From an uncultured Opitutia bacterium (GTDB taxonomy: Bacteria > Verrucomicrobiota > Verrucomicrobiia > Opitutales > Opitutaceae), in NCBI GenBank assembly GCA_903859715.1, contig CAIONS010000068.1, forward strand, positions 1 through 64,000: 64,000 nt of DNA, in the 5' to 3' direction. The translations under genes and the position numbers were made by a program. Of the stretch, positions 4,116 through 6,072 are shown piece by piece. The notes under the pieces are model-generated. The model was not told where the DNA came from. It made no database searches and was given only the letters and a program-made list of their open reading frames with translations. Positions within the stretch are counted from its first letter, which is position 1, and each line of letters begins with the position of its first letter.

Positions 4116-5201
4116 ATGTCCGCGGCCGAGTCCTCCATCCCACCGACCACGAAGAAGCCGCCTTTCCCGATCACCGCCGGCTTCCGCGGTTACCTTAGCC
4201 GCTACAAGCGCGAGCGTGAACTGCCGGTCACTTACGAGCGGCTGCGTGATTTCCAGGAAGCCATCCCGCTGACGGATGAGCGGGGCAAACCGACGCTCTG
4301 GGACAGTGTCATCTACCGGGCGGACGAGATGGGCGACCTCTACGAGGGCCTGAAGCGCATCTACGCGCTGCTGAAGGTCGACGGCGATTTTTCCGTCGTG
4401 GAGCATCTCTACGTGGACCGTGTGGATTTCTGCAGCTTCGGGAACTCGACCCCGTTCCGCATCCGGGTCGTCAACGCGTACAACGACAACCAGGATTATT
4501 TCTATCTCAAGAAGGCCGACGCCTCGCGGGCCTACGGCCTCGAGCTCGAGCACCTGCTCTCCCCCAACCGGCTGAATTTCATCACGCATGGCAGCACGCT
4601 CGTCGAGGAACACATCGCCGGCATTCCCGGCGACGCCTTCATCGAGCGCTGGCTGCATGACCGCGATCTCAGTCCCGTGCGCGTGGCGAAGGAGATGGTG
4701 AAGTTCAACGAGCGCTCCTTCGTGCGTCTGCTCGGCGACATGCGCTCCTACAATTACGTCGTGGTGGTCACGCCCGACTTCGAGGGCGCGCAGGTGCGGA
4801 TCCGCGCAATGGACTTCGACCAGCAGTCCTACAACGGCCGGAAAAACTTCTACCTGCCGCAGTTCTTTAAGGAAAACGCCGAGATGGTACTCTATTGCAT
4901 GAAGCACCTGCACTCGAAGACCGCGCTCCAGTACCAGCGCGAGGAGCAGACCCTGATGCTCCAGCGCGCCGAGCTCGCCAGCCAGCGGCTCGGCCTCCTG
5001 CTCGGGGAGATGGCGCGCGATCCCATCGCACCGCTGGAGAAAGTGCACGAGCTGCGCGCGAGCCTCGCCGAGCATTACCAGCGCGACGAATATCTGCGCT
5101 GCGAATCCATGGGCGAACTCGTCCGCGAAAATCTCGAGTCGATCCGCCGCGCGATCGGACATCCGGTGCGGCCCGCGACGATGGGTGAGTTTATTTTCTG
5201 A
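4116..5201 (+). CDS. Unrecognised protein with APH-like kinase motifs
   Basis: A 361-aa soluble protein that I do not recognise as a named family. Several motifs occur in the order expected for the aminoglycoside/choline kinase fold: a strand ending in paired lysines YFYLKKAD (128-135), a helix with acidic residues LELEHLLSP (142-150), a hinge-like VEEHIAGIPGDAF (163-175), a catalytic-loop-like GDMRSYN (207-213, matching GDxxxxN) and a metal-binding-like DFD (233-235). The C-terminal third is helical and probably coiled (275-345). The kinase assignment is inference by eye, and the target could be protein or small molecule. It stands alone, 78 bp after the dehydrogenase and 158 bp before a tiny lysine-rich peptide gene. 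Confidence 0.75.
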   Translation: MSAAESSIPPTTKKPPFPITAGFRGYLSRYKRERELPVTYERLRDFQEAIPLTDERGKPTLWDSVIYRADEMGDLYEGLKRIYALLKVDGDFSVVEHLYVDRVDFCSFGNSTPFRIRVVNAYNDNQDYFYLKKADASRAYGLELEHLLSPNRLNFITHGSTLVEEHIAGIPGDAFIERWLHDRDLSPVRVAKEMVKFNERSFVRLLGDMRSYNYVVVVTPDFEGAQVRIRAMDFDQQSYNGRKNFYLPQFFKENAEMVLYCMKHLHSKTALQYQREEQTLMLQRAELASQRLGLLLGEMARDPIAPLEKVHELRASLAEHYQRDEYLRCESMGELVRENLESIRRAIGHPVRPATMGEFIF

Positions 5202-5359
5202 TTCCGCGCGCGAATCACGGCCGTCGGAAATTTTTTTTCTCCGCTCATTTGTATTGCGCGACTGCGCTGCGGGCGTGAACTTCACACTAGCCCGTGCGCG
5301 CTTCACCGATCCTTGTGATGATTCGGCCGGGCATTAACCCACAAAAGGAAACCAAGATC

Positions 5360-5410
5360 ATGGCCAAAAAAGCTCCCAAGAAGAAAGTGGCGAAGAAAAA
5401 GAAGAAGTAA
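5360..5410 (+). CDS. Tiny lysine-rich peptide, 16 residues
   Basis: An ATG frame encoding MAKKAPKKKVAKKKKK, ten lysines in 16 residues, ends in TAA. A Shine-Dalgarno-like AAGGAA (5345-5350) is well placed upstream, and a strong factor-independent terminator starts 21 bases after the stop. That package argues for a real transcription unit rather than chance. The composition resembles the basic tail of histone H1-like or nucleoid proteins, so nucleic-acid or membrane binding is plausible but unproven. A 7-bp hairpin (5401-5407 with 5412-5418) places the stop codon in its loop. It is far too short for ordinary gene callers. A leader-peptide role or a lysine-sensing attenuator is also conceivable. 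Confidence 0.6.
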   Translation: MAKKAPKKKVAKKKKK

Positions 5411-5431
5411 GCTTCTTCTCGCCAAAAGCAT

Positions 5432-5462
5432 GAGCCGCTCCTTTTGGAGCGGCTCTTTTTTT
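5432..5462 (+). terminator. Strong factor-independent terminator
   Basis: A perfect 10-bp stem (GAGCCGCTCC at 5432-5441 with GGAGCGGCTC at 5446-5455), TTTT loop and seven T residues. It ends the transcript carrying the lysine-rich peptide. It lies between convergent genes, but the minus-strand side lacks a clean T-run, so it works mainly on the plus strand. Confidence 0.9.
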
Positions 5463-5478
5463 GCCCAGCCGGCCCGCC

Positions 5479-5949
5479 TTACTCGATCCGGCCCTCGTCG
5501 AAGTCGATGAGATCGGGCACGGTACGGATCTGCTCCACGCGGTCCGCACAACCCATGGCGGTGAGCGCTTCCTTCATGAACTCCTGCACGGCAGGCGTGA
5601 GCCCCTTCTGCGCCAGGTCGCGGTTCCATCTGGCCGCATGCACTTCCAGCGGGAGCAGCGCGCGCAGCCGCGACTCGACTTCCGCGTCATCCGCAGACTC
5701 GAACACGATCTTTTCCACGGCCGCGGGATCGATCCCCAGATGCAGGCAGAGAAACCGGTCGAGCCCGCGCTTGTAGTTTTTCGCATAGCTCGCCGGCAAC
5801 GCTCCGTGGGCCTTGACGTAGCGGCACTTCGCCAGAAACCGCGGCAGATAGAGCAATCCCGTCGCCGGATGTGGCATGTAGGGCGACGGCAGGCACGTCA
5901 GGACTTCACCCGTCGAACCGGGTATGGGCTTGGAAAGCATCGTCGCCAT
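5479..5949 (-). CDS. DUF5069-family protein
   Basis: A protein of about 156 aa matching the DUF5069 style. A conserved segment runs from YMPHPATGLLYLPRFLAKCR through NYKRGLDRFLCLHLGID, followed by an acidic C-terminus ending in PDLIDFDEGRIE. No catalytic signature is visible and the family function is unknown. The ATG at 5949 is preferred (5940 is also possible), because the upstream in-frame residues come from a GC-rich palindromic repeat at 6001-6072. It stands apart from methylglyoxal synthase by about 180 bp containing that repeat. Confidence 0.75.
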   Translation of the reverse strand: MATMLSKPIPGSTGEVLTCLPSPYMPHPATGLLYLPRFLAKCRYVKAHGALPASYAKNYKRGLDRFLCLHLGIDPAAVEKIVFESADDAEVESRLRALLPLEVHAARWNRDLAQKGLTPAVQEFMKEALTAMGCADRVEQIRTVPDLIDFDEGRIE

Positions 5950-6000
5950 GGAACGCACCGGGCGCGGCAAGGCAACTCCCGGACGCGAAGATTGCCGGCG

Positions 6001-6072
6001 GGTGGAATGTGCGCTCCGCGCGCGTTTTGCTTTGTTTAGTCGCTCCACGGCGCGCGGAGAGCGCCGTCCACC
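6001..6072. repeat. Imperfect inverted repeat, GCGC-rich
   Basis: GGTGGA plus GCGCTCCGCGCGCG (6001-6024) faces CGCGCGGAGAGCGC plus GTCCACC (6051-6072), with a 2-base slip between the arms and a T-rich centre. It fills most of the gap between the DUF5069 gene and mgsA and falsely extends the DUF5069 reading frame upstream. It resembles a REP-type palindromic unit. Confidence 0.55.

Follow-up and report, generated by a model that had tools for sequence, protein, structure and literature searches.

A conserved 16-residue lysine-rich peptide gene in an Opitutaceae bacterium, a candidate minimal histone-H1-like polycation

The peptide gene, its signals and its neighbours

Within the window, by which we mean the whole 64,000-nucleotide stretch of DNA that was analysed, positions 5360-5410 of the plus strand encode the 16-residue peptide MAKKAPKKKVAKKKKK, which contains ten lysines and not a single acidic residue. 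Direct reading places the ATG at 5360 and the TAA stop codon at 5408-5410, in agreement with the original prediction of a lysine-rich frame at this position. The frame is preceded on the same strand by a gene for a 361-aa protein (4116-5201), which has no Pfam or NCBIfam match, and is followed by a gene for a DUF5069 protein (PF16798 by Pfam match; 5479-6048, minus strand), which converges on it and served as the synteny marker in all comparisons described below. DUF5069 is in turn adjoined, in most of the loci read from the genus and in some further genera, by a gene for a protein with an MGS-like domain (PF02142; 6126-6641, minus strand), which we take to be probably methylglyoxal synthase.

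The signals expected of an independent expression unit surround the frame. A Shine-Dalgarno-like AAGGAA (5345-5350, plus strand) lies 9 nt before the ATG; AAAGGA is kept at this site in eight of the nine genus members that carry the gene, and the ninth has GGAGG. Downstream, an intrinsic terminator (5432-5462, plus strand) is formed by a perfect 10-bp stem, GAGCCGCTCC (5432-5441) pairing with GGAGCGGCTC (5446-5455) around a TTTT loop, and by seven T residues (5456-5462), with 16 nt separating the T run from the DUF5069 stop codon. A terminator scan of positions 5150-5550 returned four terminator-like sites, against 0.7 expected, and this terminator was among them. Both the ribosome site and the stem with its T run are present as originally described. 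A sigma-70 scan of the same 5150-5550 region found no promoters, with 0.1 expected. Terminator-like hairpins are also seen on the minus strand (5399-5455), where they may help in ending the convergent DUF5069 transcript.

Two in-frame start codons further upstream, GTG at 5294 and ATG at 5318, could extend the peptide at its N-terminus; because these extensions are missing from two genus members (G003 and G007), the comparison indicates that 5360 is likely the start codon. The 64-kb window contains a single ATG frame that is 12-60 codons long and at least 50% lysine, and none appeared in 60 first-order Markov simulations of the window.

With its ten lysine codons and the hairpins and terminator behind them, the unit calls to mind a leader peptide that senses lysine or lysyl-tRNA, with the hairpins acting as an attenuator, and such a leader had been among the functions proposed for the peptide. 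The gene order argues against it, as no same-strand gene lies past the terminator and the next gene, DUF5069, converges. Moreover, the same two neighbours, the 361-aa protein (72-96% identity across four genera) and DUF5069, flank the peptide gene in 17 genomes of the genera g1 (the genus of the window), g59, g65 and g21, where it reaches up to 89 codons. A lysine-sensing leader was therefore rejected on gene order, and we assign it practically no probability. One of the hairpins, a 7-bp hairpin of GAAGAAG (5401-5407) and CTTCTTC (5412-5418) on the plus strand with the stop codon in its loop, does exist in the window, but it does not appear to be conserved as part of the unit. The region around the stop codon folds in most genus members, but with different pairing, and there is no fold in G008 and several other genera. 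Given that the pairing varies or is absent in relatives and that the spacer between stop codon and terminator is only 49% identical within the genus, the hairpin is probably incidental.

Conservation in the genus and upstream elements

A DNA search covering 57 genomes, the window's own and 56 relatives of which G005 is the closest, recovered the unit, with E values no higher than 5e-28, in seven of the 11 relatives from the same genus. In an eighth relative, G008, the peptide is 20 residues long (E 9e-5). Counting the genome of the window itself, nine of 12 genus genomes carry the unit, encoding peptides of 15, 16 or 20 aa, and so the gene, its lysine pattern and its terminator were indeed found in relatives, as the original prediction had suggested checking. 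In G009 and G010 (loci L258 and L257) the unit is cleanly absent, with the neighbours' stop codons 2 and 16 nt apart, and the gene accordingly looks dispensable in this comparison. G006, where the upstream gene was found in part only, was counted neither as present nor as absent.

When the nine genus genes were aligned, conservation was unevenly spread over the unit and its flanks. Mean pairwise identity was 0.82 for the frame, 0.85 for the terminator, and 0.86 and 0.81 for two upstream blocks; the outer flanks reached 0.40 and 0.36, the remaining leader 0.58-0.63 and the stop-to-terminator spacer 0.49. The start of G008 is out of register in this alignment, which lowers the values of the ribosome site and the frame (0.75 and 0.87, respectively, without G008).

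The pattern of substitutions is that of a protein-coding frame. All length differences within the genus (15, 16 and 20 aa) are multiples of 3 nt and keep the frame. Codons 2, 3, 4, 7 and 8 encode A, K, K, K and K in all 19 short-class genes of four genera, a count that left out the 89-aa gene of G105 and the MAKA-type genes, and at these codons the genes differ in third positions only, whereas residues beyond this Lys/Ala skeleton drift. Pairwise codon differences among the nine genus genes, counted without gaps over the first nine and last five codons, with G008 and the 15-mers imperfectly matched, comprised 80 synonymous and 71 non-synonymous changes. Searching the contig collection for the exact motif MAKKAPKKK behind AGGA gave three stretches, one belonging to the genus and two located in other frames (119 and 38 aa). 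Considering the conserved frame, the synonymous change at constrained residues and the frame-keeping length changes together, we conclude from sequence comparison that these 51 nt are a genuine gene, equipped with upstream elements and a terminator of its own, and the expectation of a real gene that is easily missed is borne out. Conserved genes of 15-16 codons thus exist below the 20-residue minimum of the profile scans used here, and the 16-mer falls below that length.

The first of the two upstream blocks is the box ATTTGTRTTGCGC (5247-5259, plus strand), a candidate promoter or operator. The box lies 110-117 nt before the ATG and is exact in 14 of 20 genes from g1, g59, g65 and g21, where it precedes peptides from 15 to at least 101 aa; it is mismatched in G001, G003 and G008, reduced to a TTGCGC core in G105 and G158, and missing from G094. 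The fetched loci, 273 in number and 1.43 Mb in total, with overlaps where they come from one genome, contain 29 exact occurrences of the box in 14 genomes, and every one of these has a lysine-rich gene of this kind starting no more than 130 nt downstream. The second block, GTGAACTTCACACTAGCCCG (5275-5294, plus strand; 81% pairwise identity in the genus), is a possible -10 region and has a single site in the window when up to 3 mismatches are allowed. In place of ATTTGTRTTGCGC, 12 of 13 genes of g20, g61, g55 and g12 carry the palindrome GCGCANNNTGCGC 70-90 nt upstream (loci L173, L185, L178, L188, L087, L088, L060, L048, L053, L061, L067 and L094). It is possibly an operator distinct from the ATTTGTRTTGCGC box. 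As these four genera carry GCGCANNNTGCGC and not ATTTGTRTTGCGC, the presumed orthology of their forms is judged from location and sequence style.

A compact unit with a strong terminator could also produce a small RNA that ends at the terminator and contains the reading frame by chance, and two observations point in this direction: the region 5318-5464 folds better than its shuffles (z -4.09), and Rfam models gave eight matches in 5150-5550 at E values up to 1, several of them to sRNA models. None of these matches reaches its gathering score, however, and the best, L20_leader (E 2.5e-4), attains 31 bits where 58.7 are needed. A functional RNA also sits poorly with skeleton codons that change only synonymously, with a frame that is kept through length changes and extended by AKKAP units in relatives, and with a poorly conserved spacer between stop codon and terminator. 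We consider the small-RNA explanation very unlikely and take the peptide to be the probable product.

A series of lengths beside DUF5069

When a 31-aa member was used as the query against 150 genomes, matches came from its own genus only (3 of 150), presumably owing to low complexity, and DNA patterns together with synteny were used in its place. Two DNA patterns were found in 14 and 12 of the 150 genomes, and the reversed control gave 2 and 0 hits. In one of the 14 genomes, G173 (g58), the matching frame, of 19 aa, does not lie at the DUF5069 place; it is perhaps unrelated and was set aside. The frames of G034 (16 aa) and G028 (30 aa) are located elsewhere and were left out of the same-place count.

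DUF5069 was found in 136 of the 150 family genomes. Its 3' flank was read in 113 of these and in three more genus members, giving 116 genomes, several of them cut by contig ends. A convergent, stand-alone lysine-rich gene of 15-89 aa stands beside DUF5069 in 30 of the 116, with its start no more than 1.1 kb from the DUF5069 end in 25 genomes and 3.9-6.1 kb away in five genomes of g20. The lengths at this place form a series from g1 (15-20 aa), g59 (17-21 aa) and g21 (21 aa) to g65 (26-89 aa), g61 (31-34 aa), g64 (38 aa), g6 and g55 (56 aa each) and g20 (67-84 aa). In g65 we found lengths of 26, 32, 89 and at least 101 aa, the last in G127, where the gene runs to a contig end behind the same upstream gene and the same ATTTGTRTTGCGC box as the 16-mer. 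The longer same-place forms are made up of almost nothing but AKKAP-type units; of such repeats the 16-mer retains hardly any, and the variation in repeat length is displayed by the family.

No same-place gene was in view in the remaining 86 of the 116 genomes, some of whose flanks end at contig ends, and in five genomes without the gene (G009, G132, G068, G110 and G077) the aligned neighbour ends are 9-46 nt apart. These absences suggest that the gene is patchily kept. On a DUF5069 tree of 43 rows, length classes cluster (14 changes, compared with 22.0 in shuffles), absences do not (203 of 500 shuffles were as low), and the tree does not tell an ancestral from a reduced short form. One genome of g61, G125, carries the gene twice, as a 31-aa and a 36-aa form on separate contigs (L053 and L094) behind the same palindrome GCGCANNNTGCGC.

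Likeness to histone-H1-like proteins and a proposed function

The longer same-place members resemble known histone-H1-like proteins. The 84-, 56- and 89-aa members match the Pfam family HC2 (PF07382) at E 9e-7, 6e-6 and 3e-4, with scores of 29.6, 27.0 and 21.3 bits that lie below the curated cut-off of 40 bits. A six-frame HC2 search of 57 genomes, in which stop codons were read through, gave matches in 11, four of them above the cut-off, including the same-place loci of G030 (50.1 bits) and G016 (45.2 bits); one of 14 controls matched, below the cut-off, and none of the 12 genus genomes did. Matches to hist_H1_lk_Burk (NF038053) had E values of 4e-6 to 4e-5 and scores of 27.1, 24.0 and 24.0 bits, and its curated cut-off of 80 bits was not reached by the longer members. 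In the same scan the best match of these low-complexity sequences was to an unrelated model, the Rv3852 family (E 1.6e-7), and longer members also matched the likewise unrelated models valine--tRNA ligase and, in the Pfam scan, Extensin_1. Such matches imply that profile hits of these sequences are unspecific, so that the likeness to HC2 is described here as a resemblance; composition may explain the HC2, H1-like, Rv3852, ligase and Extensin_1 matches alike. The 31-, 22- and 20-aa members and an 84-aa gene of another family gave no match in the profile scans.

The resemblance extends to the way in which such proteins vary. According to passages of PMC2848022, Hc2 (hctB; PF07382) is a Lys/Ala-rich repeat protein whose length differs between close relatives through gain and loss of lysine-rich repeats; it measures 165-237 aa in C. 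trachomatis, compared with 16 aa here and 15 to about 101 aa in the relatives. The same passages describe BpH1-type proteins of Bordetella and Burkholderia (NF038053) as built of lysine-rich pentamers and variable in length (182-206 aa in B. pertussis, against 16 aa here) and reported not to be essential in Bordetella. The AlgP tail of Pseudomonas aeruginosa consists of KPAA repeats, Lys/Pro/Ala-rich, predicted to be disordered and similar to an H1 tail, with a repeat number that is altered in clinical isolates (PMC9239181); it follows a 124-aa N-terminal domain, whereas the peptides of the present family are repeat-like throughout and have no other domain. In PMC2848022 and PMC9239181, the bacterial histone-H1-like sequences described are either long repeat proteins or the tails of larger ones. 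The literature matches listed included no paper on peptides of this type from Verrucomicrobiota, subscription literature lying mostly outside the scope of the search.

Among the three functions put forward for the peptide, a nucleoid-binding micro-histone fits best, because the longer genes at the same place encode histone-H1-like AKKAP-repeat proteins; DNA binding itself is predicted. We thus favour, as the probable reading, a minimal histone-H1-like polycation that would most likely bind DNA, and perhaps further polyanions. We infer that the frame is translated, under a presumed condition of use, into a disordered polycation. All 38 collected peptides are free of acidic residues, and there are 9-10 positive side chains on the 15-16-mers. 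As known H1-like proteins act on DNA, the expected target is DNA, to which the peptide would bind electrostatically without sequence specificity, helping to neutralise and compact the nucleoid in the manner of lysine-rich proteins such as Hc2. Relatives differ chiefly in the number of AKKAP-type units, so what evolves appears to be length, and charge and affinity along with it; the genus of the window stands at the short end of the series. Oligolysine complexes with DNA are less stable for K8 than for K16, as stated in PMC4991294, and by this measure a 16-mer with ten lysines may bind DNA weakly and reversibly; it would perhaps serve as an abundant, loose neutraliser. The two HU-type proteins encoded in the genome were counted against the DNA-binding reading; with these and a polyphosphate kinase in the genome, both DNA organisation and polyphosphate are conceivable contexts for the peptide.

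Polycations of this kind could have other partners. Lysine-rich proteins can bind RNA, and Hc2 is reported in portions of PMC2848022 to bind RNA more strongly than Hc1 does and to repress translation, so that the peptide might act on RNA or ribosomes, for example as a basic peptide that binds rRNA or dampens translation. A fixed ribosomal component is hard to reconcile with the clean absence from G009 and G010 and with a spread from 15 to about 100 aa, and the 84-aa form has no match by sequence among PDB chains, a weak test for a low-complexity sequence; we hold an RNA target to be rather unlikely. A similarly low probability is given to a peptide that serves a different polyanion, binding polyphosphate or the surface of storage granules or acting as a counter-ion in starved cells. 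In support of this, PMC9239181 places AlgP, with its Lys/Pro/Ala-rich tail, at the polyphosphate granules of Pseudomonas and reports condensates of polyP with polycationic peptides, and a polyphosphate kinase (PF02503, 205.5 bits) is encoded in the genome. This enzyme is common, however, being present in seven of 14 control genomes, and the neighbours of the peptide gene (the 361-aa protein, DUF5069 and the MGS-domain protein) suggest no link to granules.

Returning to the DNA-binding reading, we tentatively extend it, with somewhat less than even confidence, to a family of stand-alone H1-like peptides without other domains in Verrucomicrobiota. Their charge would be set, as by a dial, by a lysine-repeat number that is free to evolve, and the family would range from about 100 residues to functional peptides of only 15-16. 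If true, the upstream element shared by short and long forms in four genera would mean that promoters of one kind supply the nucleoid with widely differing amounts of charge. The natural same-place series from 15 to about 100 residues, with its common upstream element and neighbours and its absences inside a single genus, would make it possible to ask how many lysines a chromatin-like peptide needs in order to work in a cell.

Comparable genes occur beyond the family. A phylum-wide pattern was found in 105 of 387 genomes, and in 27 of 387 when reversed as a control; among its matches, true small genes stand beside the N-terminal ends of large proteins and short frames of the type MAKKREKKA. 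We read 50 of these loci in two sets (30 and 20; G297, G344, G358 and G416 are in both) and found stand-alone lysine-rich small genes of 19-84 aa in nine genomes of three other families (f27, f44 and f49). They are likened to the peptide gene by style, being small, stand-alone and lysine-rich with a MAKKAAKK or MAKKVVKK start, and neither neighbour gene was found in the nine loci compared (stretches of 1.7-3 kb). Forms of 19-23 aa are found in other families too (G416, G243 and G368), which indicates that very short versions are not limited to the genus of the window. Several larger proteins of the phylum have lysine-rich MAKK..KK prefixes in the same style (L205, L204, L250, L242, L245 and L210), and these prefixes may be nucleic-acid-binding tags or may reflect a compositional habit.
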